Shown piece by piece: positions 25,110-43,522 of a stretch of DNA of 64,000 nt. The notes under the pieces are model-generated. The model saw only the letters and a list, made by a program, of their open reading frames with translations. It was not told where the DNA came from and searched no databases. How positions within the stretch are numbered: the stretch's first letter is position 1; each line of letters begins with the position of its first letter. The DNA is from an uncultured Hyphomonadaceae bacterium. GTDB taxonomy: Bacteria; Pseudomonadota; Alphaproteobacteria; Caulobacterales; Maricaulaceae. A program made the translations under genes and the position numbers. The stretch covers positions 1 to 64,000 of the forward strand of contig CAJXPX010000018.1 in the NCBI GenBank assembly GCA_913058335.1, in the 5' to 3' direction.

Positions 25110-27473
25110 ATGAGTTTTAAGAAAGAATTAGCCTGCGGTTTGGCGAGCTGGGTATTTATTGTCGCTAACCCGGCTTTTGCTCAACAGGTGCCAGTTGATG
25201 ACACAGTGTCTGAAGAGGCGCCAATTTCTAATTATGACGCAGAAAAAGATCAGATAGTAGTGACGGCACAACGCCGATCACAATCTCTTTCTGAGGTGCC
25301 AGTAGCGGTTTCGGCTTTCAACGCCGAGATTCTACAAGAAAGAAATATTACCACAGAGCAGGATCTTGCCAAGCTAGTGCCCGGATTGCTTGTTAAGAGT
25401 GGTCAAAATTCCAACCAGCTAAACTTTACTATGCGCGGGCAAACACTTGATCCATTTTCCGGGTCCAGTCCGGCTGTTCTGACATATATCAATGAGGCCC
25501 CAGCTACCGAAGGAAACACATCCACGGCATTTTTTGACTTTAATTCAATTCAGGTGCTCAAAGGGCCGCAGGGCACTCTTTTTGGTCGGAATGCTACAGG
25601 CGGAGCTATACTCTATGAAACGACTAAGCCTGGAGACGTATTTGGAGGTTACCTAAATTTAAAAGGTGGTGAGCGTGATTACATTCAGGCGCAAGGTGCC
25701 TTAGATATCCCGCTTTCTGATATTATCCGTCTAAGAGTTGCGGGTGATTATAAGAAACAAGATGGTTATATACGGAATGCCAAAACAGGTAATAATTTGG
25801 GCGATGTTGATGCGCTTTCTGGTCGTGTCACGTTGGAAATTGAACCTACGTCCAACATTAAAAACTCTACTGTAGCGCAGTATAGCGATTTTGGTGGATC
25901 AGAAGGAGCCGGTGGCTTGTATTCCTATCATTCGGTGGGGGAAACCAACAATGGATATGTGCTCAACACGACTTTGGATAGCTTATACGGGTTGAATAGT
26001 CCTTTCGCGCCCATTTTAGGTGATGGTCCTATGGGAGATGGTACATGGCCTGGTGCGGTTCCCGGATACTTAGAGTGGCAGCAAGATAATCCTTATCAAG
26101 TTTGGCTGAGTTATGATTTGCCGCACAAAGCTCATACGGGTTTCGTTATAAATACGACAGAGGTTGAGCTGGGTGAAAACATCGTTTTGAAAAATATTTT
26201 TAGCTATGCTGATGCTTTTGCGCGCACGCCAGGAATTCTTTCAGGTTCTCCATTTGGCTCGTTAAATCTCTATAATAATTCTGGTCTCGGAAATGGCCCT
26301 CCTGGCGGCGAGACATTTGATAATCAACGGTTCTCTAATGAGCTCCAATTGCAGGGCTCATCCGGACCTTTAGAGTATATTGTTGGTGTATTTTATTCCG
26401 ACACGGATAAGGCTGAATACGTTCCAGTTATAGTTGGGGCAGAATTAGACCCGCCGGTTGCAGATATAGCTTACAATTATACGGTAGGCGACGAATCGAA
26501 AGCGGTATTTGCCCAGTTGAGTTACGCGCTAACCGAAAAACTCACACTTACAGCCGGTGGCCGGTATACTTGGGAAAAACTATCTCTCCGCCAAGATCCA
26601 GGGAGTCTCTTCAACCTAGATGGGACAACGCCTTTCAATCAGGAAGCTGATCTGGAAGACCCTAGCTGGACTTTCAATGTTCAGTATCAAATTAACCCAG
26701 ACCATATGGTTTATGCCGCCCAACGAGGTAGCTTTAGAGCAGGTGGATTTAATGGCGCCGTTGCCCCTTTCGACGACGTTAATTTCTTTGACAATGAAAA
26801 TGCTTACGACTTTGAATTGGGTTATAAGTTTAATGGTATCCTTGGGAATGTGCCAACTCGCGTCAATTTTGCTGCCTATCATCAAACAGTTAAAGACGCT
26901 CAACATTCTATTTTTGCTGACTTAGGGGGAGGGCCATCAGCCTTCACGGTAAATGTTCCGAAAAAACGAATTCAAGGTGTCGAGTTGGATGCTCATTTCA
27001 CCGCTACAGATTGGTTGGAATTCGGCTTTGCAGGCGCCTATACAGATGCAGAATTTACAGAAAATATCGTGGATCTGGGGCCTCTTGGTGGTCCGGTTAT
27101 CCCGTTTGATACTTATGCGGACGCGCCGGAGTGGGCCGGGTCAGTTTTCGCCGAATTGAGTATGGCTCTTGAAGGCAATGCCGGCGATGTAAAGTTCCGA
27201 ACAGATGTTTTTGGTCAAACAAGTACCTACTTCTCCAATAATGAAGGCTCAATCACGCCGCGCACTCAATTACCCGGCTATGTCACTGTTGATATGAGAT
27301 TAAGTTGGAATGAGATAATGGGGAATCAGGTATCCGCAGCCGTCTATGTGAAAAACCTGTTTGATGAATTTTATTATAATTCAGGATACGTTGAGGGTGG
27401 CTCAGGTGGTTTTAATACAGCCATTTGGGGTGAGCCTCAAACATTTGGTGCGGAACTAAGTTACCGTTTCTAA
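25110..27473 (+). CDS. TonB-dependent receptor, likely uptake gene of the camphor-type cluster
   Basis: The ATG at 25110 has GGGAGA upstream and opens a signal peptide ending AFAQ, so it is preferred over the GTG at 25086. The 787-residue product has the TonB box DQIVVTAQRRSQ, a plug with FTMRGQTLDPFSG and VLKGPQGTLFGRNATGGAIL, and a barrel ending FGAELSYRF. Its operator is shared with the monooxygenase genes downstream, so it is probably induced together with them. This would be TonB-driven uptake of a hydrophobic terpenoid-like substrate; the ligand is inferred. Confidence 0.88.
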   Translation: MSFKKELACGLASWVFIVANPAFAQQVPVDDTVSEEAPISNYDAEKDQIVVTAQRRSQSLSEVPVAVSAFNAEILQERNITTEQDLAKLVPGLLVKSGQNSNQLNFTMRGQTLDPFSGSSPAVLTYINEAPATEGNTSTAFFDFNSIQVLKGPQGTLFGRNATGGAILYETTKPGDVFGGYLNLKGGERDYIQAQGALDIPLSDIIRLRVAGDYKKQDGYIRNAKTGNNLGDVDALSGRVTLEIEPTSNIKNSTVAQYSDFGGSEGAGGLYSYHSVGETNNGYVLNTTLDSLYGLNSPFAPILGDGPMGDGTWPGAVPGYLEWQQDNPYQVWLSYDLPHKAHTGFVINTTEVELGENIVLKNIFSYADAFARTPGILSGSPFGSLNLYNNSGLGNGPPGGETFDNQRFSNELQLQGSSGPLEYIVGVFYSDTDKAEYVPVIVGAELDPPVADIAYNYTVGDESKAVFAQLSYALTEKLTLTAGGRYTWEKLSLRQDPGSLFNLDGTTPFNQEADLEDPSWTFNVQYQINPDHMVYAAQRGSFRAGGFNGAVAPFDDVNFFDNENAYDFELGYKFNGILGNVPTRVNFAAYHQTVKDAQHSIFADLGGGPSAFTVNVPKKRIQGVELDAHFTATDWLEFGFAGAYTDAEFTENIVDLGPLGGPVIPFDTYADAPEWAGSVFAELSMALEGNAGDVKFRTDVFGQTSTYFSNNEGSITPRTQLPGYVTVDMRLSWNEIMGNQVSAAVYVKNLFDEFYYNSGYVEGGSGGFNTAIWGEPQTFGAELSYRF

Positions 27474-27488
27474 GGATTGAAACAAAAG

Positions 27489-27514
27489 GGGGCAGAGTAA
27501 AAATGCTCTGCTCC
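27489..27514 (+). terminator. Hairpin after the TonB receptor gene
   Basis: GCAGAG (27492-27497) pairs with CTCTGC (27506-27511), with GG/CC extension, 18 bases after the stop codon. No U-tract follows, so it may be only a partial terminator or an mRNA 3' stabiliser. The rest of the 226-bp gap to the next gene shows nothing else. Confidence 0.4.
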
Positions 27515-27699
27515 AAAAGAACGGCAGCGGAATTTATTTTGTCGGTGTTACCGCTCTATAAAACTGCCAATTCCATACCGACTTTAGCTTTTGGCCATGC
27601 GGGCAAGCGAAACCTCGTGCGCTGGAATTAAATGAGTCTCAGTTTGAAGTTTCTTTTCGCTCCATAATTTTATGCAATTAAATCTATTGAGGCCTCACA

Positions 27700-29334
27700 A
27701 TGACAACCAAAACCAGTCCAGATTATGAAGTTGTGGTTATTGGGGCGGGTGTCACAGGGATTTATCAAACATATCTGATAGACAAAATTGGTCTGACGGT
27801 TCTCGGTATTGACGCTGCGCCTGATGTTGGCGGAACTTGGTTTTGGAATAGATACCCAGGGTGTCGACTAGATACGGAGAGTTACGCATACGGCTATTTC
27901 GCCCTTAAAGGGATTATGCCCGACTGGTCTTGGAGCGAAAGGTTTGCTGGTCAGCCCGAAATGCTCCGATATGTGAACGAAGCTGCAGATAAGATGGGCG
28001 TTCGAAAGCACTATCAATTTAAAACCAAAGTCATTTCAACTGTTTTCAATGAAGATGAAGAATTGTGGGTTGTAACTCTTGATGATGGGAAAAGTTTAAG
28101 CTGCAGATTTCTAATATCTGCTACGGGTCCGCTATCTGCATCGAATATGCCTTATTTCAAGGGGCTGAAGGATTTCAAAGGCAAAGCTTTCCATTCTTCA
28201 GATTGGCCCACAGATGAAAAAGGATTAGCAAAAAATACTGATTTCTCCGGGAAGAGAGTCGGTGTGATTGGTACTGGGGCAACCGGGGTTCAAATTATAC
28301 CTATTGTCGCGGAAACCGCTAAAGATCTTTTTGTTTTTCAACGGTCTCCTAATTGGTGTACGCCTCTCGGAAATACTCCCCTCTCCAAAGACGATATGGA
28401 ATTGATTCGAACCCGTTTCCCTACAATTTTAGAATATGTAAAGACCACTCCGACGGCTTTTCCATACCACCGGGATAAGCGAAAAGCGAGTGAAGTTACC
28501 GCAGAAGAACGGACGAAGATATTTGAGGATCTGTACAATGAGTCAGGTTATGGAATATGGCTGAGTAGTTTCAGGGATCTTCTATTGAGCCGAGAGTCAA
28601 ACCAGTTTTTGGCAAATTTTGTAGCTAAGAAAATAAGAGAGCGGGTGAAAGATCCGATAGTGGCGGAGAAGCTGATACCCGTGGATCATCCCTTTGGAGC
28701 GAAAAGGGTGCCGATGGAAACAAATTACTATGAAAGCTACAATCAAGACAATGTTCATTTGGTCGATATAAAATCAATCCCGATTAAAGAATTTACCGAA
28801 ACAGGTGTAACAATAGGTGAGGATCATTACGATCTAGACGTGATAATTTTTGCGACTGGTTTCGACGGCGTCACTGGATCTCTCGATCGAATTGACATTC
28901 GCGGTCATGACGGATTACGGTTAGTGGAGGCGTGGGAAGATGGACCTTCAACCTATCTTGGCTTGCAAGCCCGCGGCTTCCCTAACTTCTTCGCATTGGT
29001 TGGTCCTCACAATGGCTCCGCCTTTTGTAACGTAGGGGTTTGCGGCGCACTTCAGGCCGAATGGGTCACGCGTATGATCGAATACCTCAAAGATCGTGAT
29101 CTTACATATGCGCAGCCTTTGCAGTCTGCAGAAGATGAGTGGACGAAAGCTGTTTACGCAGACTTTGAACGCACACTTATGGCTGAAACAAATGCCTGGT
29201 GGGTTAAGGTGACGGAGAAACCTGACGGAACCATTGTACGAAGGACTTTAGTATATGTGGGGGGAGGGCCTGAATATCGCAAGCGATGCGAAGAAGTCGC
29301 TTACAACGATTATGAAGGTTTTGAACTTCACTAA
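27700..29334 (+). CDS. camG: Type I Baeyer-Villiger monooxygenase, OTEMO/CamG-like
   Basis: 544 residues with two Rossmann folds (GAGVTG at 15-20 for FAD, GTGATG at 191-196 for NADPH) and the Baeyer-Villiger fingerprint FKGKAFHSSDWP at 159-170. Throughout (for example GGTWFWNRYPGCRLDTESYA, HPFGAKRVPMETNYY, LVGPHNGSAFCNVGVCG) it agrees closely with what I remember of OTEMO, the 2-oxo-delta3-4,5,5-trimethylcyclopentenylacetyl-CoA monooxygenase of camphor degradation. That enzyme oxidises the CoA ester of the first ring-cleavage product of camphor to a lactone. A CoA ligase, a P450cam-like enzyme and a diketocamphane-monooxygenase-like gene nearby support the role. No alignment was run. Confidence 0.85.
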   Translation: MTTKTSPDYEVVVIGAGVTGIYQTYLIDKIGLTVLGIDAAPDVGGTWFWNRYPGCRLDTESYAYGYFALKGIMPDWSWSERFAGQPEMLRYVNEAADKMGVRKHYQFKTKVISTVFNEDEELWVVTLDDGKSLSCRFLISATGPLSASNMPYFKGLKDFKGKAFHSSDWPTDEKGLAKNTDFSGKRVGVIGTGATGVQIIPIVAETAKDLFVFQRSPNWCTPLGNTPLSKDDMELIRTRFPTILEYVKTTPTAFPYHRDKRKASEVTAEERTKIFEDLYNESGYGIWLSSFRDLLLSRESNQFLANFVAKKIRERVKDPIVAEKLIPVDHPFGAKRVPMETNYYESYNQDNVHLVDIKSIPIKEFTETGVTIGEDHYDLDVIIFATGFDGVTGSLDRIDIRGHDGLRLVEAWEDGPSTYLGLQARGFPNFFALVGPHNGSAFCNVGVCGALQAEWVTRMIEYLKDRDLTYAQPLQSAEDEWTKAVYADFERTLMAETNAWWVKVTEKPDGTIVRRTLVYVGGGPEYRKRCEEVAYNDYEGFELH

Positions 29335-29439: not shown

Positions 29440-30210
29440 TTAGCGAACGGATATCAATCCGCCGTCAACGGGGATGAGCTGCCCTGTGATAAACCGCGAC
29501 CCGTCACCGGCTAAAAATACCATTACGGGCGCAAGGTCTTTATCTGCATCGCCAAATTTACCGCCTAAGGGAATTTGCTCAGCAGTCGCTTTGTCGTGTG
29601 CTGCAAGGTCTTCTTTTGAAAGGGCTTCTCTGAAGCGCGCATACATAGGAGTCACGATGTAGGGGAGTACTGCATTTAGACGAATACCCTTTTCCCCCCA
29701 TTCACGAGCGACGCTTCGTGTCCAAGCGTGAACAGCTGCTTTTGATGCTCCGTAAACAGCATTGTTTATCTCGGCCGTTAACCCGGATTCCGAGCCAAAG
29801 TTAATTATAGAGCCTCCTTCTGTCATATGACGATAGGCTGCACCATTCGTGTAGATCGTACCATTCATGTTTACCTTGAAGAGCCACTCTAAAGTTTCAT
29901 CCGGTACTTCATGCGTTGGTGCATGTCGGTGAACCCCCGCGATATTTGCTAAAACATCTAGTCCGCCCATTTGATCTGCGGCTTCGTCAAAGGCGGTATC
30001 GACTTCTTCGCGATTAGAGACATCGCACTTAAGAAAAAAGGCTGACCCCGGAGTGTCTTTATTGGCATTTTGGACCGCAGCATTGCCCATCTCTGTGTTC
30101 ACATCCATAGCGGCGACTTGAGCGCCAGCGGCAACATATGCTCGAAGCGTTGATTCCCCAATGCCTTGAGCGCACCCCGTGACAATTATTTTTTTATTCT
30201 TCAGTTCCAT
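29440..30210 (-). CDS. Short-chain dehydrogenase/reductase
   Basis: The ATG at 30210 follows AAAGGA at good spacing; the 32-residue upstream extension of the frame looks non-coding. The 256-residue product has the classic SDR motifs TGCAQGIG (cofactor glycines), NIAG (usually NNAG), a catalytic Ser in NFGSESG and YGASK. The Asp at the end of beta-2 (AMDVN) suggests NAD preference. In this block it could oxidise a hydroxy intermediate of the terpenoid pathway or a 3-hydroxyacyl-CoA; the exact step is unknown. Confidence 0.8.
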
Positions 30211-30326
30211 GAAATCGGTCCTTTCTGTGTAATCCGATATAGTTATATCTAAAGGTTCAGAGCTTAGCCGCCGAAACAGCCTTGATGGATTTATCATCTC
30301 TGCCATTTTGGAAGCCTTCAGACTTA

Positions 30327-30523: not shown

Positions 30524-31270
30524 CTAATGTGCCAACATTCCAGCATCTACAAGATGTTCGGAGCCAGTAATGTATGAGGATTCATCCGACGCCAAAAATA
30601 GTACAAGATTAGAAACTTCAATCGGGTCGGCAATCCGGCCAAGTGGGATTTCCGCTAAGGCATCCCCACCTGTTTCATCTGTGGCTTCTACCATCATCGG
30701 GGTTTGAATAAAGCCTGGATGCACCGAGTTAACACGAATGTTTTTCCTGCCATACTCAATCGCTGTGGCTTTGGTCATGCCGCGGACAGCAAATTTACTC
30801 GCGACATATGCCAAGCTAGGAAAACCATAATTTGCTGCGATACCTGCTATGGAAGAGATGTTCACAATTGACCCTTTGTTAGCCTCAACCATAGTTGGCA
30901 AAACAGCCCGCATTCCGTAAAAAACTGAATGTTGATTAATTTCGCAAACTTTATCATATCCAGAATCGTCTAATGTTTCGGTGTCAGCCATCGGGCCCAG
31001 AATGCCTGCATTATTAACTAAAATGTCTATAGTTCCAAAAGCGTCCTTGGTCTTAGTCACCAATTCATTCCATGAATCTGGATTTGTAACGTCATGCTCC
31101 ACAAAGAGGCTTGAGCTCCCTATTTCTTTCGCGAGTAACTTTCCGCCCTCTACATTGATATCTGAGAGAACGACCTTGGCGCCTTCTTTCGCAAATAGTC
31201 GAGAGTGAGATTCCCCCATCCCACGCGCAGCTCCTGTTATAATTGCAACTTTTCCCGATAGGCGACCCAT
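30524..31270 (-). CDS. Short-chain dehydrogenase/reductase
   Basis: 248 residues starting at an ATG with AGGAGGTTATT upstream. SDR motifs are complete: TGAARGMG at residues 12-19, NNAG, INISS with the catalytic Ser, YVASK and the C-terminal VDAG. It is transcribed leftwards from a promoter region shared with the alcohol dehydrogenase/P450 operon. A weak form of the block's palindrome (AATCTAAT-TGGA-GTTAAGAA, 31293-31312) lies in front of it. A dehydrogenase for hydroxylated terpenoid or beta-oxidation intermediates fits the context. Confidence 0.82.
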   Translation of the reverse strand: MGRLSGKVAIITGAARGMGESHSRLFAKEGAKVVLSDINVEGGKLLAKEIGSSSLFVEHDVTNPDSWNELVTKTKDAFGTIDILVNNAGILGPMADTETLDDSGYDKVCEINQHSVFYGMRAVLPTMVEANKGSIVNISSIAGIAANYGFPSLAYVASKFAVRGMTKATAIEYGRKNIRVNSVHPGFIQTPMMVEATDETGGDALAEIPLGRIADPIEVSNLVLFLASDESSYITGSEHLVDAGMLAH

Positions 31271-31480: not shown

Positions 31481-31510
31481 TTGCGAAATTTACCTAATTT
31501 ATGTTAGGCT
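31481..31510 (+). promoter_or_regulatory. Promoter and palindromic operator of the dehydrogenase-P450 operon
   Basis: TTGCGA (31481-31486) and TAGGCT (31505-31510) are spaced 18 bp. The operator TACCTAAT-TTAT-GTTAGGCT covers 31491-31510, with the same arrangement (half-site over the -10, 10 bp from -35 start to operator) as at 37601-37630. Repression by a TetR protein of the block is inferred. The start codon is 68 bp downstream. Confidence 0.6.
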
Positions 31511-31577: not shown

Positions 31578-32660
31578 ATGCATGGTATAGCTTCAGTACT
31601 CGTAGAGAAGAATCGTCTTGAGACTTGGGGGGTCGATATTCACCCCCCTGAGCCAGGCGGCGCGTTAGTGCGGACGGTTTTAGGGGGAGTTTGCGGAAGC
31701 GATGTCCATATTGCATCGGGCGAAGCTGGCGAGATGCCTTTCCCTATTATTCTTGGTCACGAAGGCGTGGGGGAGATTACCCAACTAGGTGAGGGGGTAA
31801 CGACTGATTATGCCGGGGTGCCCGTAAAAACAGGGGACTTGGTTATTTGGTCGCCGATTGCCCTTTGCCATCGCTGCTATTCCTGCACTATTTTACAAGA
31901 GACGCCTTGTGAGAATAGTCAATTTTTTGAAAACGCATCAAAACCCAATTGGGGCAGTTATGCTGATTACGCTTGGCTTCCAAACAACATGCCATTTTAT
32001 CGATTGCCGGACGGTGCTATACCGGAGGCTGTTGCGGCTCTTGGTTGCGGCTTGCCAACCGCCTTACGAGGGTTTGATCGCTGTGGTCCAGTGGGCTTTG
32101 GGGATACAGTCGTCGTACAGGGCGCTGGGCCAGTAGGACTGTCGGCAGTGCTCGTGGCTGCGCAAGCCGGGGCCCGTGAGGTCATTATAATCGATGGCCC
32201 ACAAGTTCGACTGGATGCCGCAAAGAGTCTGGGAGCGACAGCCACTGTTTCACTTAACTTGTCGGCTGAAGAACGTAAAAGAAAGATATATGACCTCACA
32301 GGTAAGAATGGTCCGGATCTCGTGATTGAAGCAGCTGGTGTGCTTCCGGCTTTTCCAGAAGGGGTGGACATAAGCGGAAATCATGGACGTTACATTATTC
32401 TAGGTTTGTGGGGGGCCATCGGTACCCAGCCAATTCCGCCGCGCGAGTTAAGCACTAAAAATTTGACGATTGGAGGGGCGTCATTCCCTTCTCCCAAAAA
32501 TTACTATCAAGGAATGCAGTTTGCGGCGCGTATGCAAGAGCGTGTGCCACTTGCCGAATTAGTAAGTCATCGGTTTAGCATTGCAGAGGCTGGGGAGGCC
32601 CTTAAGGTGACTAAAAATGGCGTGGCTACAAAAGCTGTAATTGATCCGACAATTAAATAG
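31578..32660 (+). CDS. camD: Zinc-dependent alcohol dehydrogenase, 5-exo-hydroxycamphor dehydrogenase-like
   Basis: 360 residues, medium-chain dehydrogenase family. The catalytic zinc site is seen as GGVCGSDVH and GHEGVGEI. A four-cysteine structural zinc lobe is present (CHRCYSCTILQETPC, spacing C-x2-C-x2-C-x7-C), and the NAD fold carries GAGPVGLS. It sits 12 bases before a P450cam-like gene, the same order as camD-camC in Pseudomonas putida, where CamD oxidises 5-exo-hydroxycamphor to 2,5-diketocamphane. The length also fits. The substrate is inferred from synteny, and the symbol should be read as putative. Confidence 0.8.
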   Translation: MHGIASVLVEKNRLETWGVDIHPPEPGGALVRTVLGGVCGSDVHIASGEAGEMPFPIILGHEGVGEITQLGEGVTTDYAGVPVKTGDLVIWSPIALCHRCYSCTILQETPCENSQFFENASKPNWGSYADYAWLPNNMPFYRLPDGAIPEAVAALGCGLPTALRGFDRCGPVGFGDTVVVQGAGPVGLSAVLVAAQAGAREVIIIDGPQVRLDAAKSLGATATVSLNLSAEERKRKIYDLTGKNGPDLVIEAAGVLPAFPEGVDISGNHGRYIILGLWGAIGTQPIPPRELSTKNLTIGGASFPSPKNYYQGMQFAARMQERVPLAELVSHRFSIAEAGEALKVTKNGVATKAVIDPTIK

Positions 32661-34530: not shown

Positions 34531-35667
34531 CTAACCTACTGAAACCTGAGCGCTATTCGCGTTCGGATCGCGTATAGGAAGTCTGTTAGTCACGGTTAGG
34601 CCGAAGCCTTCAAGGGCAGCAAGTTTAGCCTTGCTTGAGGTGAGCAGAGTCATTTCTCCAACACCTAGATCTAAAAGAATTTGAGCTCCAATTCCATAAT
34701 CGCGAGTTGCATAATTCATATGGTAATTTTTTCGCCCGCCTTCAATTCGTTTAGAAATGGAATCTATACTTGGGTCACGTACAAAAACAGCTACAGCAGG
34801 CCCCTCATGTGCGGCAATCGTTTGTAGGGCTTGGGGAACATATTCCGGATGCGCCGTTGACCAACCAAGCATGTCAGCTGTTAGGTCGATTTGGTGAACA
34901 CGTACTAAAGTATTTGAGTCAGGTTTCACATCTCCTTTAAAAAGTGCAATGTGTTCTCCGTTATCAATTAAGTTGCGATAAATGTTAATAGTAAGATCTC
35001 CCCCATAGAAACTATGAAAGGGAGCCGATGCAACTAGCTTTATGAGCTTTTCTGAACGGCGGCGATAAGCGATTAAATCTGCAATTGTTCCGACCTTTAA
35101 ACCATGTTTTTTCGCAAATTCCAGCAATTGTGGCAGCCGAGCCATAGTGCCATCATCATTCATGACCTCGCAAATCACACCTGCAGGAGTGAGCCCGGCA
35201 ATTCGGGAAATATCAACGGCGGCTTCCGTGTGACCCGCTCGAACTAACACGCCTCCATCTTTTGCTGTGAGCGGGAAGACGTGGCCGGGTGAGACAATAT
35301 CTTTCGCTGTTTTTGAGGGATCAACTGCAACAGCAATTGTATGAGCGCGATCTTTTGCTGAAATACCGGTTGTGACTCCTTCTAGGGCCTCTATCGAAAT
35401 GGTGAAGGCTGTGCCATGCCCCGATTGATTGTTGGACGTCATCGGAGGCAGATTTAATTGCTCCGCCCTTGCTTTGGTCATGGAGAGGCAAATTAATCCA
35501 CGAGCGTGTTTAGCCATAAAGTTTATCTGGTGAGGTGTCGCAAATTGCGCTGGAATTATGACGTCCCCCTCATTTTCTCGGTCATCTGCATCTACAAGAA
35601 TATACGGCAAACCATTTTTTGCGTCTTGTATGATGTCTTCAATTGTTGAGATGCCCGAGTGTGTCAT
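34531..35667 (-). CDS. ribB: RibBA-type protein: DHBP synthase with a degenerate GTP-cyclohydrolase II domain
   Basis: 378 residues. The N-terminal half (about 1-200) is an intact 3,4-dihydroxy-2-butanone-4-phosphate synthase: VDADDRENEGDVI acid loop, ISAKDRA, PGHVFPL and RAGHTEAAVD. The C-terminal half (about 205-365) has the GTP-cyclohydrolase II fold (TLVRVHQIDLTADMLG, RDYGIGAQILLDLGVGEMTL) but lacks the zinc-binding cysteine cluster, so it is probably not catalytic for GTP; this is common in alphaproteobacterial RibB. It makes the four-carbon unit of riboflavin. Finding it inside a block of five flavin-dependent enzymes suggests a private flavin supply. Confidence 0.88.
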   Translation of the reverse strand: MTHSGISTIEDIIQDAKNGLPYILVDADDRENEGDVIIPAQFATPHQINFMAKHARGLICLSMTKARAEQLNLPPMTSNNQSGHGTAFTISIEALEGVTTGISAKDRAHTIAVAVDPSKTAKDIVSPGHVFPLTAKDGGVLVRAGHTEAAVDISRIAGLTPAGVICEVMNDDGTMARLPQLLEFAKKHGLKVGTIADLIAYRRRSEKLIKLVASAPFHSFYGGDLTINIYRNLIDNGEHIALFKGDVKPDSNTLVRVHQIDLTADMLGWSTAHPEYVPQALQTIAAHEGPAVAVFVRDPSIDSISKRIEGGRKNYHMNYATRDYGIGAQILLDLGVGEMTLLTSSKAKLAALEGFGLTVTNRLPIRDPNANSAQVSVG

Positions 35668-35701: not shown

Positions 35702-37381
35702 TTACGACTTAACCTGCTCTATTTGAGAAAGCGCCATCTCTTTTAAAATGTTTTTCTGAACCTTGCCTGTGCCCGTTTTGGGAAGGTCTTTTTCAGAAAT
35801 AAACCATATATCACGAGGTAGTTTATACCGGGAAATCTGTGGTTTAAGCCAATTCAAGACTTCCTCTTCACTAATATCGCTTCCCTCTGCGCGAACCATC
35901 CACGCGCAGCCGCACTCTCCCCAACGGTTGTCGGGCATGCCTATAAAGAACGCTTGGACGATGCTTGGGTGGCTAGTTACTAGCTGCTCTAATTCCTTAG
36001 GGGAGACCAATTCGCCTTTACTCTTGTAGAGATCTTTTGATCGTCCTGTGAGGAAAAGATAACCATTTTCCAAAAAATGCCCTAAATCACCTGTGCGTAA
36101 CCAACCGTCAGCTAAGAAAACTTTCGATGTTTCTTCAGGCCGACGAAAGTAACCCAAACTGTTCATTGGTCCCCGTGTGCAAAGTTCGCCTGATGACCCG
36201 TAAGGTAAATCACTACCTGTTTGCGGATCAATTGTTTTAAATTCGCAAATACGACCATTCTGCTCAGCGATGCCGGCTACTCCAGCTTGTACGATACATC
36301 CTTGCGTTTCGGATACGAGATCGATTGAATCGCCAGGCTGGGTGCAAATAATAGTGGCAGTTGCCTCGGTTTGCCCGTAGCTCGTGAAAATCTCGTCGCA
36401 CCCAAATGTATCTTGGATTTCTCGCCAAACCCATTTCGGCGTAGGCGCCGCCGCGCTATGGACGGCTGTAAGTGAACTAAGATCATAACTTTTGATTTTT
36501 GCCTGTTCCATCATCGCGATTGTCATGGTTGGCACGCCCATTAAATAGGTTGCGCGATGTTTTTCGATTGCTGAAAGAATATTATCAGCATTAAAACGCA
36601 ATAAGGGTACAATTGAGCCACCAACAATCATTCCGGAAAGCAGGCCAACGACTAAGCCAAAGCCATGATAAAGCGGTAAAGAGAAAACCCCCCTCCTGCC
36701 TGTTTCGAATGCTTGGTGATACGCACCTGCATAGGCTGCTCTAAGAAGATTATCGTGTGTTTGTATGACGCCCTTGGGGGCACCAGTTGTTCCAGACGTA
36801 AACATGATGACGGCCGGATCGTGGGGGGATGTTATTTGAGTTGGCAGTTCGGTGGAGGGCATGGCCGAGAAAAATTTATCCGGATTGTCTGCGTCATAAA
36901 CCATCCCTCCACGGAGTTCTGGAAAGCTGGCGCAATCTCCATCTCGCCAACCCGGCATGTGAGAGTCTAATTCAGTATCAAACCTGCGCGAACCAAATTT
37001 CGCCATGCTAATGATAAGATTACATCCCGATTCACGCACGACATGTTCAAGCTCACTAACATTGTAGAGCGTGTTTATCGCTACAGCGACGGCACCAACT
37101 CTCCAAATGGCGAACAGCAGCGACACCGTGACGGGATAATTCGCCATAAGAAGCCCTACTCGGTCACCTTGACTAATCCCAAATCCTGTAAGCCCTTTGG
37201 CCAGACGTTCGGATTGAGAAAAAATAGATTTATAATCGAGTGAGACTTCATCCGTAATGACAAGAGGTTCATCAGAAAAGTGTAATAGTGAACGCTCAAG
37301 GTATTTGTTCAGGCACATTTCTTCCCATTCGGGATGACGGTTTGCTATCGCCTGACGTCGCTGCGAAACGGTTTTATGCAC
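35702..37381 (-). CDS. Acyl-CoA synthetase (AMP-binding family), candidate OTE-CoA ligase
   Basis: 559 residues from a GTG at 37381 preceded by AGGGGA. It carries the P-loop-like MFTSGTTGAPKGVIQTH, the A5 region SYGQTEATATI, the A7/A8 motif GWLRTGDLGHF and the C-terminal catalytic lysine in LPKTGTGKVQKNIL. It activates a carboxylic acid to the CoA thioester via an acyl-adenylate. In camphor catabolism the ring-cleaved acid must become a CoA ester before OTEMO acts, which gives a role here. RibBA follows 34 bases downstream in the same direction. Confidence 0.82.
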   Translation of the reverse strand: MHKTVSQRRQAIANRHPEWEEMCLNKYLERSLLHFSDEPLVITDEVSLDYKSIFSQSERLAKGLTGFGISQGDRVGLLMANYPVTVSLLFAIWRVGAVAVAINTLYNVSELEHVVRESGCNLIISMAKFGSRRFDTELDSHMPGWRDGDCASFPELRGGMVYDADNPDKFFSAMPSTELPTQITSPHDPAVIMFTSGTTGAPKGVIQTHDNLLRAAYAGAYHQAFETGRRGVFSLPLYHGFGLVVGLLSGMIVGGSIVPLLRFNADNILSAIEKHRATYLMGVPTMTIAMMEQAKIKSYDLSSLTAVHSAAAPTPKWVWREIQDTFGCDEIFTSYGQTEATATIICTQPGDSIDLVSETQGCIVQAGVAGIAEQNGRICEFKTIDPQTGSDLPYGSSGELCTRGPMNSLGYFRRPEETSKVFLADGWLRTGDLGHFLENGYLFLTGRSKDLYKSKGELVSPKELEQLVTSHPSIVQAFFIGMPDNRWGECGCAWMVRAEGSDISEEEVLNWLKPQISRYKLPRDIWFISEKDLPKTGTGKVQKNILKEMALSQIEQVKS

Positions 37382-37397: not shown

Positions 37398-37417
37398 AGC
37401 CTAATTAAAATTATGAT
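37398..37417. promoter_or_regulatory. Palindromic operator before the CoA-ligase gene
   Basis: AGCCTAAT-TAAA-ATTATGAT has the same 8-4-8 layout as the other block operators and lies 17 bp before the leftward CoA-ligase start, downstream of its likely promoter. The right arm matches the consensus at 6 of 8 bases. The 280-bp divergent gap also holds the perfect copy at 37611-37630. Confidence 0.5.
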
Positions 37418-37600: not shown

Positions 37601-37631
37601 TTGCCAAGGTAGCCTAATTTCTATTAGGCTA
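37601..37631 (+). promoter_or_regulatory. Promoter and perfect palindromic operator of the luciferase-family gene
   Basis: TTGCCA (37601-37606) and TAGGCT (37625-37630) are spaced 18 bp. The operator AGCCTAAT-TTCT-ATTAGGCT (37611-37630) is a perfect inverted repeat and extends to T/A on each side. It is the best copy of the block-wide motif. A strong AGGAGG site precedes the ATG at 37662. Confidence 0.7.
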
Positions 37632-37661: not shown

Positions 37662-38753
37662 ATGGATGTCGGGTTGGGATTAACTTTCCAAAACATTAAA
37701 GAGGGTGTGAGCGACATAGAGGTTTATCGCCATGAATTATCGTTGGCCGCTCGGGCTGAAGATCAGGGGTTTGATTCAATTTGGACTCCGGAGCATCATT
37801 TCACGGGCTATATGATGACACCCAATGTTCCTCAATTTCTTTCGTGGGTGGCCGCTAAAACCACCCGCATGAAGCTTGGTACAACGGTGACTGTTCTGCC
37901 TTGGGCAAATCCGGTGCGCGTTGCTGAAAGCTTTCTTCTTCTAGATCACCTCTCGGAAGGGCGCGCGATATTGGGTATGGGGCGCGGATTAGGAAAAGGC
38001 GAGTTCGACGGATTTAAAGTCCCGATGGGCGAATCGCGGAGCAGATTTCGTGAAAATGCGGAGGCTGTTTTGCAAGCTCTTGAAACTGGGGTGATGGAAT
38101 ATGATGGGAAATATTTGCAACAGCCGCGGGTCGAATTAAGGCCGCGTCCATATGCAAGTTACCGCGGAAGAGTTTTTGCTTCAGCTGTTTCTCCCGAATC
38201 AGTTAAACTTATGGCCAACCTTGATGTGGGACTAATGATCATTGCCCAAAAGCCTTGGGATAGGGTGGCTGAGGATGTAAAAAATTACAGGGATCGGTTT
38301 TTTGAGATGCAGGGTCGTTCCGCGCCAAAGCCCGTTGTCGTTGCTTTTGTCGCGGTGAGTGAAGACAAGGCAAAAGCACAAGAAATGCATGACAAATACC
38401 TTGTCGAGTATGCACGTTCGACATCTGAGTTTTACCAGTTTGGGAATAAAGAATTCGCCGACATTGAGGGCTATGAATATTACGGAGCCCTTGCAAATAG
38501 CGTGGAGAAGCATGGCATAGACAAATTTAACGAGTTCTTAGCGGACCTACAAATTTGGGGTCGACCCGAAGAGGTTGTTGAAAAGTTAAAAGCCATGGTT
38601 GAGCGTTTTGATGTTGGTAGCTTTATTGTTTATACCCAATTTGGGGATATGCCTTTTGAAGTGGGTAAGGAAAACTACGAAACTTTTGCTCGCAAAGTTC
38701 TGCCTCACTTGAAAGATATTGACGTATCTGGGCCGCCAGTTGGCCCGTCGTAA
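37662..38753 (+). CDS. Luciferase-like flavin-dependent monooxygenase
   Basis: 363 residues of the bacterial-luciferase (LLM) fold: FDSIWTPEHHFTGYM, TTRMKLGTTVTVLPWANPVR and LDHLSEGRAILGMGRGLGKGEFD, ending with WGRPEEVVEKLKAM. Members use reduced FMN delivered by a reductase. It differs from the diketocamphane-monooxygenase-like protein at 41430, so it may act at another step, such as oxidation of a later lactone or ketone. It starts a rightward operon (crotonase, SMP-30 protein, TetR) under the perfect operator. Confidence 0.8.
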   Translation: MDVGLGLTFQNIKEGVSDIEVYRHELSLAARAEDQGFDSIWTPEHHFTGYMMTPNVPQFLSWVAAKTTRMKLGTTVTVLPWANPVRVAESFLLLDHLSEGRAILGMGRGLGKGEFDGFKVPMGESRSRFRENAEAVLQALETGVMEYDGKYLQQPRVELRPRPYASYRGRVFASAVSPESVKLMANLDVGLMIIAQKPWDRVAEDVKNYRDRFFEMQGRSAPKPVVVAFVAVSEDKAKAQEMHDKYLVEYARSTSEFYQFGNKEFADIEGYEYYGALANSVEKHGIDKFNEFLADLQIWGRPEEVVEKLKAMVERFDVGSFIVYTQFGDMPFEVGKENYETFARKVLPHLKDIDVSGPPVGPS

Positions 38754-38841
38754 ACTTTGGTGGGTTTTTAAAATAAAGATGAATTACTGTTTGAAATTTA
38801 TCCAAGCATAAGTTCCATCGATAATGAAAAAGGACGTGCTG

Positions 38842-39693
38842 ATGGGGAATGGCGAAGATGTTTTACTTTATGAGTTGCAGGACGGCACCGCGTGGATAAC
38901 ACTCAATCGCCCTGAAAAACGGAACGCACTGAGCGAGCCTTTGCAGGAAGAATTATGCCGTATGCTGTGGGAGGCCGACGAAGATAATCGTGTCCATTCG
39001 GTTGTGTTAAAGGCTGCCGGCCCTGATTTTTGCTCAGGTTATGATTTACAAAAATATGATCAACCTGTGCCCGACCAAGTAAACTACAAACGAGGTCGTG
39101 CAAAATTTGATGACGATAGCTGGCACCAAGAAAGAGCGCAGCGTTTGCGCATGGCGTTGTTTGACATGCACAAACCCGTGATCGCACAAGTGCATGGACG
39201 ATGCCTAGCGGGTGGTACAGATCTTGCCTTATTGTGCGACATTGTAATTTGTTCTGATGATGCCATTTTCGGCTTTCCTCCGGCGCGTTCCCAAGGCTCC
39301 CTTCCTAGCCATATGTGGCTCTACCTCGTTGGACCTCAATGGGCAAAAAGGTTACTTCTTACCGGCGATTCTATTCGCGGTGAAGATGCAGCGAAAATTG
39401 GATTAGTTCTTAAATCTGTTCCTGTCGAGAACCTGCAGAGTGAGGTTAGCGCCCTAGCAAACCGGTTGGCACTAGTCGATGCCGATTTACTCAGCGCAAA
39501 TAAGCGCATCGTAAATATTGGCTTGGAGTTAATGGGAGCGCGTACAATCCAGCGGATGGCGGCTGAAATGGATGCGCGAGGGCACCTTGCTCCTAGTCGG
39601 GACGAATTTAACGAAACCGTGCGTGTTAAGGGCTTAAAGCAAGCGGTCCGACAACGCGATGAGCCATTTGGAGACTCGGTTGTTAAACTTTAG
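38842..39693 (+). CDS. Enoyl-CoA hydratase/isomerase (crotonase) family protein
   Basis: The ATG at 38842 has AAAAAGGA at proper distance and is preferred over the ATG at 38824. About 283 residues with the crotonase core: DFCSGYDLQKY, HGRCLAGGTDLALLCDIVI and LLLTGDSIRGEDAAKIGLV. The position of the first catalytic Glu of enoyl-CoA hydratase is Asp (D127), and the second Glu position is Pro (P147 in FGFPPARSQG). So simple hydratase chemistry is doubtful; an isomerase, hydrolase or C-C lyase is possible. Context points to breakdown of the CoA-bound ring-opened terpenoid. Confidence 0.8.
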   Translation: MGNGEDVLLYELQDGTAWITLNRPEKRNALSEPLQEELCRMLWEADEDNRVHSVVLKAAGPDFCSGYDLQKYDQPVPDQVNYKRGRAKFDDDSWHQERAQRLRMALFDMHKPVIAQVHGRCLAGGTDLALLCDIVICSDDAIFGFPPARSQGSLPSHMWLYLVGPQWAKRLLLTGDSIRGEDAAKIGLVLKSVPVENLQSEVSALANRLALVDADLLSANKRIVNIGLELMGARTIQRMAAEMDARGHLAPSRDEFNETVRVKGLKQAVRQRDEPFGDSVVKL

Positions 39694-39727: not shown

Positions 39728-40663
39728 ATGATGGAAGGTGAAGGTTGGCGCTGTTTATGGGATGCGAAAGCAATTCTCGGAGAGAGTACGATTTGGGACG
39801 ATCGGGATGGATGTATATATTGGGTTGATATTGAGGGGCCGAGTGTAAATTGGTATAATCTCGAAACCGGTAAAAAAGGGACATGGGTTCCGCCGACTTG
39901 GATTAGCGCAATAGCGCCGCGCGCAAGTGGTGGGTTTATTGCCTCTTGTGCAGACGGTTTCGCCCATATTGACCCAAAAGGCCAGGTTTACAGTCCGATT
40001 TTACATCCCATTCCAGATCCAAAAATTGCCAGATTAAATGACGGGGTTACGGATCGTGAAGGGCGCTACTGGTCAGGTTCTTGCGATACAAGCCAGTGGG
40101 ACGAGAGTACGACTGCCGAAGATAAAGAAAGCACCTTAGGTGATTTGGATTCACGAAATACCGGCGAACTTTATCGCTTAGATGCGGACGGAAAGCTTAG
40201 CACGCAAGAGAGAGATATTGTCACTGCAAATGGCCCGGCTTTCAGTCCTGATGGCCGTACCGCTTATGTAAACGACTCAATGCCATTGGTAAGTTGGGTT
40301 TATGATGTTTCTGACGACGGAGAATTATCAAATCGTCGGGATTTCCTCAAATTTCAGCCTAAGGATGGGTATCCTGATGGGATGGCAGTTGATGTGGAAG
40401 GATGCATTTGGATGGCGTTTTACGAAAGCTGGATGTTGAGACGTTTTGCGCCGGATGCCACTTTGTTGGAGGAACGGAAACTTCCTGTAAGACGTGGTTT
40501 GCGCCCCGCTTTTGGGGGGCAGGATTACTCTCGATTGTTTCTAATTACAGGGTCACAAGGTTACACGGAGAAGAATTTCGAGCAAGAACCACTCGCGGGA
40601 GGTTTGTTTGAAATACTAAATCCGCCAGCGCCTGGGGTGCCTGTAACTCCTTATATGGGATAA
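39728..40663 (+). CDS. SMP-30/gluconolactonase-family protein, candidate lactone hydrolase
   Basis: 311 residues of the six-bladed beta-propeller SMP-30/regucalcin family. Metal-site residues are recognisable: E near the start (ILGESTIWDDRDGCIYWVDI), the central N-D (ARLNDGVTDREGRYWSG) and D in KDGYPDGMAVDVEGCIWMA. Relatives hydrolyse sugar and other lactones using Ca or Zn. Two Baeyer-Villiger-type oxidations in this cluster would produce lactones, so a lactonase role is reasonable. The gene sits between the crotonase and a TetR regulator in one transcription unit. Confidence 0.8.
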   Translation: MMEGEGWRCLWDAKAILGESTIWDDRDGCIYWVDIEGPSVNWYNLETGKKGTWVPPTWISAIAPRASGGFIASCADGFAHIDPKGQVYSPILHPIPDPKIARLNDGVTDREGRYWSGSCDTSQWDESTTAEDKESTLGDLDSRNTGELYRLDADGKLSTQERDIVTANGPAFSPDGRTAYVNDSMPLVSWVYDVSDDGELSNRRDFLKFQPKDGYPDGMAVDVEGCIWMAFYESWMLRRFAPDATLLEERKLPVRRGLRPAFGGQDYSRLFLITGSQGYTEKNFEQEPLAGGLFEILNPPAPGVPVTPYMG

Positions 40664-40708: not shown

Positions 40709-41320
40709 ATGAACCGCATGGCTAATGCAGAAAACACCAGAAAACGTATTTTAGATTCCGCGGCAGCGATCCTTCGGCATAAGGGTTTAGCAGGTGCTAA
40801 ACTTAGTGAAATAGCCGAAGGCGCTGGAATGCTTGCGCCAAGTATTTATCATCATTTTGGGTCGAAGGATATTTTGGTCGAAAAGGTGATGATGGAAGGT
40901 ATATACAATAATAGCCATCATATTGTTGCGCGGGTTGAAAGACTTGGCCCGTCAGCAACTCCTCTGGTAAGATTACGAACTGCTATAATTTCGCATATTG
41001 AATTTTTACTATCAGGTGACGACTATTCCTCTGCTGTAGCGAGGGTGTTCGATGATTTGCCGGAGGAAATGCGCAGGCGCGTATTAGCAGCATACTCTAG
41101 TTTTGATAATTACTGGCGCGATCTTATCGTTGCTGCGCAGGCCGATGGAAGTGCTAGTAAGTCTTTGGATGCTACGGTAGTGCGGAAGTTTCTTATAGCA
41201 ATGTTAGATTCTTGTTCGTCATGGTATCGCCCTGGAAAATTAGGGCCATCGGAAATCGCAGAACAAGCGGCATCACTCCTGCTTGACGGATTTGCTTCTA
41301 TTGATAGTGAAAAAACATAA
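40709..41320 (+). CDS. TetR-family transcriptional regulator
   Basis: 203 residues with an N-terminal HTH (RKRILDSAAAILRHKGLAGAK, LSEIAEGAGMLAPSIYHHFGSKDILVEKVM) and an all-helical ligand domain. It ends the operon that begins with the perfect operator at 37611, so it would be autoregulated if it binds that site. TetR dimers bind short palindromes like the block motif. Together with the second TetR at 42878 it is a candidate repressor of the cluster, analogous in role to CamR. Confidence 0.85.
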   Translation: MNRMANAENTRKRILDSAAAILRHKGLAGAKLSEIAEGAGMLAPSIYHHFGSKDILVEKVMMEGIYNNSHHIVARVERLGPSATPLVRLRTAIISHIEFLLSGDDYSSAVARVFDDLPEEMRRRVLAAYSSFDNYWRDLIVAAQADGSASKSLDATVVRKFLIAMLDSCSSWYRPGKLGPSEIAEQAASLLLDGFASIDSEKT

Positions 41321-41384: not shown

Positions 41385-41429
41385 CTAATTTGCATTTAAC
41401 TATTTTTGTCTTTGAGGGGCTTAATCAAG

Positions 41430-42548
41430 TTATTTTGACTTTGGTAGTTTAATGCGGGGTGCAACCTCTTTCGAAATTAACTCAAGTGAGTTCCACCAAG
41501 GAGCAGGGTTATCGTAATAATCATGGGACTCGACTTGTAACGTACCCCAGCCTCCACACTTTTCGAACAAAGTGTTGATCTTATCGACAACTGTATCGGG
41601 CGACCCTACAACAAAAACGTGATCAACAAGGAATTCTAGGTCTGCCTTTTCCGGGTCAATGCCTGCGTCTTTTGCGAAGCCGTCCATCATGCCAAACCGA
41701 CGCCAAATCGGGATAAGGTATTTGTTGAAACAGTAACCTATCGGTCCTTCCATAACTTCTTTTTTAGCTTCAGCATCTGTATCACCAACAAATACAGTTT
41801 GGGAAACCGCGTGACGTTGTCGATCTGGTGTGAAACCTGCTTTGATATTGGCCTCAGAGTAGATTTCCCAGTGACGTTTTAAGGCTTCCAAGCCAGAATA
41901 TATAGAAACTGGTTTGAAGTTTCTTTCTCCTGCAAGGCGCATGGACGGGGAGTTTTTACTGAATCCGGTTACTGCAATCTCAGGTGCATCGCCGCCCCAT
42001 GGAGAAAAGTCAGCCAGCATATGTTGTTCATCTTCTTCTGTTACGGGAACTTCCTCTTCCGGATATCCGGCATCCCAATATTTGCCTTCGTAGAAGAACG
42101 GCTCTCGCTTCCAAATTTTTTCCATAATTGATAAGGACTCTCGAACCATATCGTTCAAACGTTCTGTGTCCTGATCATCGCCGCGTATACCGTGGATATA
42201 TGTGGCATCGGGATAGGCACCTGCGCCTATTCCTAAGAAATAGCGGCCTTCAAGGATTTGGGAGAGCCAACCAACTGTCATCGCGAGTTTGGCTGGGTGC
42301 TGATGGGGCAAAATATGGGCCATGGGTCCAAACCTAATGTTTTTGGTTTGTAGGGCCGAAGCTGCAATAATCAGTTCTGGGTTTGGGATGTTTTCCCATA
42401 TCTGCGATGCATGTTCAGAAATCATCATGGAGGTGAACCCTGCTTTGTCACAGGCTATAGAGTTTTGAACTCCCCACTCAAAAGTTTGTTTTGCCGTCCG
42501 TCCTGGGCGCATGTAAGGGTGAAATATTAGTCCGGTTTCCATTGTCAT
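41430..42548 (-). CDS. camE: Luciferase-family monooxygenase, diketocamphane 1,2-monooxygenase-like
   Basis: 372 residues, FMNH2-dependent type II Baeyer-Villiger fold. The run IWENIPNPELIIAASALQTK, the region with MAHILPHQHPAKLA, the segment GWLSQILEGRYFLGIGAG and the later SPWGGDAPEIAVTGFSKNS match what I recall of the 2,5- and 3,6-diketocamphane monooxygenases, including order and spacing. Those enzymes convert diketocamphane to a lactone that opens spontaneously. Its own promoter region carries a copy of the block operator (42624-42643). The reduced FMN would come from the reductase at 33931. The regiospecificity cannot be read from sequence. Confidence 0.83.
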   Translation of the reverse strand: MTMETGLIFHPYMRPGRTAKQTFEWGVQNSIACDKAGFTSMMISEHASQIWENIPNPELIIAASALQTKNIRFGPMAHILPHQHPAKLAMTVGWLSQILEGRYFLGIGAGAYPDATYIHGIRGDDQDTERLNDMVRESLSIMEKIWKREPFFYEGKYWDAGYPEEEVPVTEEDEQHMLADFSPWGGDAPEIAVTGFSKNSPSMRLAGERNFKPVSIYSGLEALKRHWEIYSEANIKAGFTPDRQRHAVSQTVFVGDTDAEAKKEVMEGPIGYCFNKYLIPIWRRFGMMDGFAKDAGIDPEKADLEFLVDHVFVVGSPDTVVDKINTLFEKCGGWGTLQVESHDYYDNPAPWWNSLELISKEVAPRIKLPKSK

Positions 42549-42623
42549 GACATTTTCTCCTTTAGGTTAATATATCGAACTTGTATGTTTCGCATGTAAT
42601 CGCGAAATCTCCCCGGTCCGTTC

Positions 42624-42643
42624 AGTCTAATGACAGTTAGGGT
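42624..42643. promoter_or_regulatory. Palindromic operator before the diketocamphane-monooxygenase-like gene
   Basis: AGTCTAAT-GACA-GTTAGGGT keeps the 8-4-8 layout and most consensus bases of the block motif. It lies 76 bp before the leftward gene at 42548. The 328-bp divergent gap to the TetR gene at 42878 has no other clear element and is AT-rich. Confidence 0.5.
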
Positions 42644-42877
42644 GATAACGTGGTCAAAACTTTAAGTCAAGTGTAAACAAGATTCCAGAAAGCTAAATAT
42701 CATTAGTGCAAAATCCTTATATATTTTCTAAAAAAGTCAGTTTTTTGGGATTTAAGTTGTCTTTTTTTAAAAAACTCTGTAAAAATATCTTAAAAAGCTG
42801 ACTGATCACATCTTATTGAGAAGGTAAAAGTTCTTTGTAATTTACACTTGTTTTAAAATTATGGTGCTAATCTTGTA

Positions 42878-43522
42878 ATGACTGGAATTCCTCCAAATTA
42901 TCCAAACTATGAATTGGATGGTAAAACGCGTTTAATTCTTGCCGGGGAACAGCTATTTGCTGAAAATGGTATTAATGGAGCGTCCATGCGCGAAATAGCG
43001 ACGCGCGCTGAACAGGGAAATCATGCAGCCGTTCAATATCATTTTGGTTCCCGAGAGGGTCTAGTTCGGGCAATATTTGATTTTCGCATGGAGAAAATGG
43101 AAGCTTCAAGGAGTAAAATGTTGAAGCAGGCCGAAGTTGAGGGGCGGTTAAGGGATGCTCGCACTATACTCGATATAATTTTGATTCCGCAACTTGATAT
43201 GCAAGATGCCGATGGAAACCATTCATACGCGAACTTTTTGAGTCAATACCTCTTACTTTCTTCTTCTAGAGAATTCAGTGACTTTGCTGGGCCTGAGACG
43301 CCGAGCCTGACTGAAGCTTTGCGCCTTCTAAGTGAAAGAGTGAATTATCTGCCTCAACATGTCGCACAACGCAGGCTCATTAGCGTAAGTTTGATGTTCT
43401 TGAATATTTTGATACGCCATCAAGATCAAAGCGAGAACGTGCTTGGTGAATCTATTTCCGAAGCCCTAGAAGATACCATGGAGCAAATCGTAAACGTTAT
43501 GTGTATGCCGCATCGGCGGTAG
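42878..43522 (+). CDS. TetR-family transcriptional regulator
   Basis: 214 residues. The HTH is at about residues 16-62 (KTRLILAGEQLFAENGINGAS, MREIATRAEQGNHAAVQYHFGSREGLVRAI), followed by a helical ligand-binding domain. It is divergent from the diketocamphane-monooxygenase-like gene, with an operator copy in between, the arrangement typical for TetR repressors and for camR in Pseudomonas. Its position at the outer edge of the block makes it a candidate master regulator. Confidence 0.85.
   Translation: MTGIPPNYPNYELDGKTRLILAGEQLFAENGINGASMREIATRAEQGNHAAVQYHFGSREGLVRAIFDFRMEKMEASRSKMLKQAEVEGRLRDARTILDIILIPQLDMQDADGNHSYANFLSQYLLLSSSREFSDFAGPETPSLTEALRLLSERVNYLPQHVAQRRLISVSLMFLNILIRHQDQSENVLGESISEALEDTMEQIVNVMCMPHRR

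Follow-up and report, generated by a model that had tools for sequence, protein, structure and literature searches.

The question raised by this locus is which compounds the genes lying between positions 25086 and 43522 of our window might allow the cell to degrade, and how they came to be there; by the window we mean the whole stretch of 64,000 nucleotides that was analysed, from contig CAJXPX010000018.1 of an uncultured Hyphomonadaceae bacterium. This block contains 15 genes, all of them intact open reading frames (ORFs) with the expected Pfam domains, in the order TonB-dependent receptor, OTEMO-type Baeyer-Villiger monooxygenase, two short-chain dehydrogenases (SDR1 and SDR2), zinc alcohol dehydrogenase (ADH), P450, flavin reductase, RibB, acyl-CoA ligase, luciferase-family monooxygenase LLM1, crotonase, SMP-30 protein, TetR1, diketocamphane monooxygenase (DKCMO) and TetR2. 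We consider it quite likely, on the basis of the sequence comparisons reported below, that the block represents a camphor/borneol catabolic cluster of sphingomonad type that was acquired horizontally, and it very probably lets the cell degrade both borneol and camphor. A first-pass annotation had already proposed a camphor-type block; each gene that it named exists as an ORF where it had been placed and belongs to the Pfam family assigned to it, although the second luciferase-family gene, LLM1, had been overlooked.

The evidence carrying this idea comes first of all from three oxygenases. The OTEMO-type enzyme (27700..29334, plus strand), a homologue of CamG, scored 950.6 bits against OTEMO when compared with all PDB chains, the next match being phenylacetone monooxygenase (473 bits); OTEMO was also the sole PDB sequence matched at E<=1e-200, and the alignment with PDB 3uov is full-length and ungapped (538 residues, 72.3% identity). 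The P450 (32673..33923, plus strand) matched, in decreasing order, CYP101D1 (724 bits), CYP101D2 (619), CYP101D5 (519) and P450cam (404), with an identity of 74.5% to CYP101D1 and 67.3% to CYP101D2. It aligns without gaps to residues 5-415 of CYP101D1 with identical numbering and shares with it Trp89, Tyr98 and Met100, the residues named as lining the camphor pocket, with Tyr98 as the one that binds camphor (PMC9655578); Asp259-Thr260 and the haem Cys365 are present, too. CYP101D1 is a camphor hydroxylase (PMC8197338), and the P450 is predicted to be a 5-exo camphor hydroxylase. Lastly, the DKCMO (CamE36; 41430..42548, minus strand) reached 691 bits with 3,6-DKCMO, the next PDB chain scoring 44, and is 78.3% identical to PDB 4uwm versus 46.3% to a Pseudomonas homologue of 2,5-DKCMO (E25).

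The phylogenetic trees, which are quick trees without bootstrap and from which segments shorter than 300 (DKCMO), 400 (OTEMO) and 330 (P450) residues were excluded, placed the P450 among the CYP101D sequences, together with CYP101D1 and CYP101D2, the OTEMO-type enzyme in the OTEMO group, within an 11-row clade (98% SH-aLRT) adjoining the group with CamG, and the DKCMO with 3,6-DKCMO, separated from 2,5-DKCMO; this last tree holds 108 rows, in which many genes appear twice, having been found by two queries with different ends. The first-pass annotation had named a position outside these three groups as an argument against its camphor-type reading; no such position was found, and the comparison with characterised sequences that it proposed, giving the identities to OTEMO, CYP101D1 and 3,6-DKCMO reported above, favours the same reading.

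The other enzymes of the block can be arranged around these three. SDR1 (29440..30306, minus strand, likely start 30210) matches the borneol dehydrogenase (BDH) PDB 6m5n with 350.7 bits, the next PDB score being 150.3, and is 64% identical over 256 residues to its homologue in Pseudomonas sp. MYb185, with which it has in common the GxxxGxG motif, the catalytic Ser, Tyr and Lys, and five of the six pocket positions described in PMC8053192, the exception being Q96, here a His. BDH is reported to convert borneol into camphor, and Pseudomonas TCU-HL1 carries it within its camphor cluster (PMC7336358). Both of the SDRs reported by the first-pass annotation are present, one of them now being a BDH homologue and the other, SDR2 (30524..31270, minus strand), a short-chain dehydrogenase by family match. 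The BDH match of Sphingobium boeckii (G139:C10:44568-45335) is flagged with an internal TAA. The ADH (31578..32660, plus strand; Pfam), CamD-like by its position, ends 12 bp before the P450 start, and the P450 ends 7 bp before an HsaB-like flavin reductase (33931..34422, plus strand; Pfam), which scores 182.9 bits with NF045630, under its cut-off of 230. The following gene (34531..35667, minus strand; Pfam) had been called a private RibBA. The RibB half is indeed there, while the second domain, that of GTP cyclohydrolase II, is degenerate. The active site of GTP cyclohydrolase II uses zinc cysteines, and no Cys occurs after residue 205, either in the block copy or in the second copy of the genome; because of this, the RibA half looks inactive, the protein should supply the RibB reaction only, and RibB is the better name. 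The acyl-CoA ligase (35702..37381, minus strand) is a candidate OTE-CoA ligase in view of its AMP-binding domain and conserved place. The crotonase/enoyl-CoA hydratase (ECH; 38824..39693, plus strand) scores 310.7 bits with NF006128, above its cut-off of 257, and the protein of the SMP-30/gluconolactonase family (39728..40663, plus strand; Pfam SGL, 218.8 bits; PDB 7plb, 157 bits) is a candidate lactonase. The TonB-dependent receptor (25086..27473, plus strand, starting at GTG 25086 or ATG 25110) has the Pfam Plug and beta-barrel domains, occupies the same place in six of the 16 related blocks that were fetched, and might be the uptake route, as suggested by its position and by one operator site.

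No ferredoxin or ferredoxin-reductase gene was found in the block. Elsewhere in the genome, on contigs C1 and C10, there are two putidaredoxin-like [2Fe-2S] ferredoxins, 37-44% identical to those encoded beside OTEMO or P450 on plasmids p2 of Novosphingobium sp. ES2-1 and pSH1 of Sphingobium xenophagum; the one on C1 lies at 242937-243260. The genome also encodes a pair of reductases bearing the C-terminal domain typical of this class, and these and the ferredoxins are candidate partners.

Hence, the following pathway may be proposed, in which we infer every reaction, as well as the uptake, the inducer and the repressor binding, from the homologies and gene order. Borneol would be converted into camphor by SDR1, and the CYP101D P450, drawing on ferredoxin and reductase encoded elsewhere in the genome, would turn camphor into 5-exo-hydroxycamphor; the zinc ADH would then yield diketocamphane. 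The first ring opening, leading to OTE, would be performed by the 3,6-DKCMO homologue using FMNH2 from the flavin reductase, with RibB aiding the flavin supply. The CoA ligase would convert OTE into OTE-CoA and OTEMO would catalyse the second ring opening, followed by hydrolysis of the lactone, perhaps by the SMP-30 protein, and by a final beta-oxidation in which the crotonase would take part.

The role of LLM1 (37662..38753, plus strand; Pfam Bac_luciferase) in this scheme is less obvious. It lies outside the DKCMO family, its identity to DKCMOs being 27% over about 100 residues only, which rules it out as an orthologue of 2,5-DKCMO (CamE25) or as a member of that family. The structural model (pLDDT 79.9) shows a luciferase-type barrel whose best fold match is a luciferase, with the first DKCMO (5aec) at rank 29, and such a match does not identify the substrate. 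A second DKCMO, 2,5-DKCMO included, was not found in the genome of the window. A scan of genome contigs with the DKCMO returned 46 loci; 42 genomes (L007-L048) were counted, two distant homologues and two contig-end fragments (L049-L052) being excluded. With orthologues called at an identity of at least 63% for E25 and at least 70% for LLM1, 28 of these 42 CamE36-bearing genomes possess E25 and 17 possess LLM1: LLM1 alone is found in 12, E25 alone in 23, both in five and neither in two. Since five genomes have both genes and two have neither, the idea of LLM1 as a strict, genome-wide substitute of E25 was rejected. However, in the five genomes harbouring both, the genes are on separate contigs or about 100 kb apart (in draft contigs), and, as far as gene distribution tells, LLM1 and 2,5-DKCMO alternate between clusters, marking two cluster types. 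In P. putida, E25 serves the (+)-camphor and E36 the (-)-camphor series (PMC6027186). Given this division, and since only a 3,6-DKCMO homologue is present here, our guess is that the block more likely serves the (-)-camphor series; an alternative guess is that LLM1 serves the other series. In Pseudomonas sp. MYb185, another luciferase-like protein, of which the sequence start was inspected, is encoded directly before E25 (L038:4520-5671), and no LLM1 match at 1e-50 exists in that genome.

As for the origin of the block, OTEMO (at E<=1e-200) was found in the genome of the window alone among 100 genomes, that is, in none of 99 relatives, 17 of which are congeners. CamE36 is 82-89% identical to most of its sphingomonad homologues (77-89% over full-length matches), whereas RpoB is 73% identical to that of a Hirschia metagenome-assembled genome (MAG) and, over long matches, 68-72% identical to those of sphingomonads, versus 58-59% for beta- and gammaproteobacteria; these values agree with the alphaproteobacterial host suggested by the first-pass annotation. 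For RpoB, 23 of the 46 loci were entered into the search and 20 of the 23 gave matches, two of them by short fragments (61% and 66%). In two single genomes (G105 and G101) CamE36 reaches 85-86% and RpoB 71% in both. Based on the absence of OTEMO from the 99 relatives, and on block proteins being closer to sphingomonads than RpoB is, we conclude that the block was gained by horizontal transfer; the presence of a related block on a conjugative plasmid, p2 of Novosphingobium sp. ES2-1, points the same way. Sixteen related blocks were fetched: six have all 15 genes in the order and orientation of the window, and ten are rearranged, missing some genes, or cut by the end of the stretch. The layout, which the first-pass annotation had described as different from that of the CAM plasmid, does differ from the Pseudomonas version; the search for synteny in other genomes revealed that it is not unique, being conserved in sphingomonads. 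LLM1-type blocks (LLM1 85% identical) occur also in MAGs labelled Azoarcus (L021) and Hydrocarboniphaga (L030), which may reflect either a transfer beyond alphaproteobacteria or binning errors.

The surroundings of the block deserve some mention. At its 5' edge (22160-25080) long frames are scarce over about 2.9 kb, and a Pfam search on seven frames recognised two fragments there, one from a DUF6791 protein and a weakly matching one from a DUF3363 protein; this stretch is possibly the scar of a mobile element. Directly downstream (43978-56215) lies a metal-efflux island with OEP/HlyD/AcrB-type efflux, a P-type ATPase, a multicopper oxidase, cation efflux and a MerR regulator, having in part a guanine-cytosine (GC) content of 50-57%. 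At 6379-9291 a YadA-type trimeric autotransporter with stalk and head repeats is encoded.

A further question concerns the regulation of the block. The palindrome CCTAA-N6-TTAGG (with at most one mismatch) occurs eight times in the window, where 1.52 occurrences would be expected; a count of eight was not reached in any of 100 shuffles. Six of these sites, listed as strandless features, precede block genes: two are found before the TonB gene, i.e., a weak, distal one (24858..24873, one mismatch) and a perfect one (25041-25056) enclosed by the promoter-like TTGACA-16-TAGGAT (25031..25058, plus strand); the others lie 70 bp before the ADH (31493..31508, no mismatch), 19 bp before the CoA ligase (37400..37415, one mismatch), 34 bp before LLM1 (37613..37628, no mismatch) and 78 bp before the DKCMO (42626..42641, one mismatch). 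Taken together, promoter-like (sigma-70) sites are no more frequent in this region than chance would give (32 vs. 30.6 in shuffles). A site is present 31-39 bp ahead of LLM1 in all the 14 fetched blocks holding this gene, and before the DKCMO in 12 of the 16; in rearranged blocks, sites are found also before TonB, SDR1, OTEMO, SMP-30 or CoA ligase genes, and all six same-order relatives have an extra one 55-56 bp ahead of TetR1, close to where the SMP-30 gene ends.

Two regulators might read this sequence, i.e., TetR1 (40709..41320, plus strand) and TetR2 (42878..43522, plus strand), both recognised by family match and searched for by tblastn (E<=1e-15) in the fetched stretches. The operator is present in 17 of 17 CamE36 loci with TetR1 in the stretch and in two of 25 without it (L007 and L034); the remaining 23 have no site in 413,640 bp. 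In both exceptions TetR1 was found further off in the genome, in one on another contig (L159) and in the other on the same contig (L151), so that after this wider look the operator accompanies TetR1 in 19 of 19 loci and is found in none of the 23 without it. In agreement with this, plasmid p2, with TetR1, carries four sites and plasmid pSH1, with no TetR1 match, carries none. This co-occurrence across loci suggests that TetR1 is probably a repressor reading CCTAA-N6-TTAGG. TetR2 as the reader is disfavoured, since loci having TetR2 and no TetR1 in the stretch are devoid of sites, save L007 and L034; it appears to be a second regulator linked to CamE36, its homologues standing beside this gene also where the operator is missing. 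The published CamR operator (PMC4592980) differs from our palindrome; its 15-base core (up to three mismatches) occurs four times in the window versus 1.54 expected, which is not a clear enrichment (eight of 100 shuffles reach four), and the two matches inside the block both fall within the DKCMO gene. Two units, LLM1-ECH-SMP30-TetR1 and DKCMO, would probably be repressed by TetR1 binding near or over their promoters; the TonB, ADH-P450-reductase and CoA-ligase-RibB units may be under its control too in this genome.

Several points weigh against the scenario depicted so far. The block OTEMO sits in a clade neighbouring the one with CamG, and is further from CamG than a second OTEMO of the same genome (C1:234420-236036; L070:12381-14042), which is 71% identical to the block copy and 77.6% to CamG. 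Coupling with OTEMO is not strict, as only 16 of the 42 CamE36-bearing genomes match it at E<=1e-200, a count lowered by genes cut at contig ends, which score below this limit. The counterparts of CamD and of CamF1/F2 are candidates, the former on the zinc ADH class and the place directly before the P450, the latter as the sole AMP-binding ligase of the block. The composition of the block (GC 45.5%) is host-like (44-50% in other host stretches) and far from that of the sphingomonad loci measured (58-64%; 52% in the Hirschia locus), which implies that the transfer was not recent or that the donor was low in GC. The sites before TonB, ADH and CoA-ligase genes recur (at most one mismatch) in none, one and one of the six same-order relatives, respectively, making the control of these units less well supported; moreover, the absence of TetR1 from the 23 negative loci was judged on the fetched stretches, the wider look covering the two exceptions, and related genomes are not independent events in these counts, the Fisher values computed for them and for the LLM1/E25 distribution taking no account of relatedness. 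Around the second OTEMO, a neighbourhood of about 27 kb comprises a TonB receptor ahead of OTEMO, crotonase, CoA-ligase, ferredoxin and P450 genes and a gene that looks thiolase-like from its sequence, with no operator site in one stretch (L070) and one in another (L071). The 26 CamE36-bearing genomes without an OTEMO match include the six Pseudomonas/Halopseudomonas genomes, and may be explained by a different route from OTE, by an OTEMO that has diverged or by genes truncated at contig ends; no significant association of OTEMO with LLM1, E25 or BDH emerged across genomes.

The separate position of the OTEMO clade would also fit a block degrading a terpenoid ketone related to camphor, whether bicyclic or monocyclic (e.g., an ionone-type norisoprenoid, fenchone or a bornane relative), with camphor being a fortuitous substrate of the tested homologues. 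The use of ionones and not camphor by CYP101D5, of the same subfamily as our P450 (PMC9655578), speaks for this idea and itself counts against camphor, and the camphor steps named in the accessible parts of PMC6027186 and PMC8706424 include no equivalent of LLM1 or SMP-30; nevertheless, we regard it as unlikely, in view of the bulky camphor-pocket residues of CYP101D1 retained by the P450, of the 78% identity of the DKCMO to 3,6-DKCMO and of the BDH homologue. A type I Baeyer-Villiger enzyme and a luciferase-family one act together on progesterone in the pdc cluster of Caenibius tardaugens, and Croceicoccus estronivorus (L010), a carrier of the block, is called a steroid degrader (PMC12239570); with the HsaB-like flavin reductase, this might suggest a steroid side-chain or ring-D cluster. 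This appears very improbable to us, since the PDB steroid monooxygenase scores 441 bits versus 951 for OTEMO, CYP101D and BDH indicate monoterpenoids, and the sole LLM1 match at 1e-50 in C. estronivorus is the cluster orthologue, although PMC12239570 puts a pdc luciferase-family enzyme in that strain; a pdc-like cluster was rejected because of the bit scores and because Croceicoccus gave no second LLM1 match. That the cluster is a non-functional remnant, as the gene fragments just upstream (22.2-25.0 kb) could hint, is hardly credible at all with 15 of 15 genes intact, operator sites present and a host-like composition. A bolder possibility, which we find rather doubtful, is that the block represents a second, separately evolved camphor machine, in which LLM1 would be a third kind of type II Baeyer-Villiger enzyme (doing the job of 2,5-DKCMO or an extra ring opening), the SMP-30 protein a lactonase for a step thought to be spontaneous, and TetR1 with CCTAA-N6-TTAGG a terpenoid switch unlike the CamR operator.

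Returning to the acquired camphor/borneol cluster, it would imply that a cluster with its own architecture spreads among alphaproteobacteria, and it would give the CYP101D1-type P450s a genomic context with a candidate repressor and operator. It also offers parts amenable to experiments: a TetR switch likely responding to camphor or OTE, a new luciferase-family oxygenase and a candidate lactonase. A search judged mainly by titles and abstract openings, with subscription literature mostly outside it, found no published account of this sphingomonad block or its operator. In our opinion, the chemistry is known, and what appears to be new is the conserved alternative architecture, the operator linked to TetR1, and LLM1.

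The comparison with known systems illustrates this. The Pseudomonas cam cluster shares with the block a CYP101 P450 behind the ADH (the camD-camC order), 3,6-DKCMO, CoA activation, OTEMO and TetR control, and BDH is known from the strain compared (PMC8053192). Unlike that cluster, the block has no putidaredoxin or its reductase and the genome has no 2,5-DKCMO; its flavin reductase gene follows that of the P450 and its RibB gene neighbours the CoA ligase, while the Fred of P. putida is chromosomal (PMC6027186), and the LLM1, SMP-30 and TonB genes have no counterpart among the P. putida camphor steps in the descriptions available. As for CYP101D1 of Novosphingobium aromaticivorans, its closest tree rows (L157, L158) derive from blocks without LLM1. 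A compact arrangement is seen on plasmid pSH1 (L161), with OTEMO, a DKCMO homologue (44%), a P450 (48%) and a ferredoxin, and a second OTEMO (73%) 9 kb on. Plasmid p2 has OTEMO, SDR2, ADH, P450, flavin reductase, TetR1, SMP-30, CoA ligase, a RibB counterpart annotated ribB, TetR2, CamE36, TonB and operator sites in common with the window, but its block is rearranged, has a ferredoxin gene behind OTEMO and lies on a conjugative plasmid; neither LLM1 nor a BDH homologue was found in that stretch. Finally, Sphingobium cupriresistens, Sphingobium sp. AP50, S. soli, S. psychrophilum, S. boeckii and Novosphingobium lentum harbour all 15 genes arranged and oriented as in the window, with protein identities of 73-89%. 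There too, the operator precedes LLM1 and DKCMO in these six blocks; it precedes TonB in none of them and ADH in N. lentum only, and they belong to another host lineage, with a GC content of 58-63% versus 45% here.

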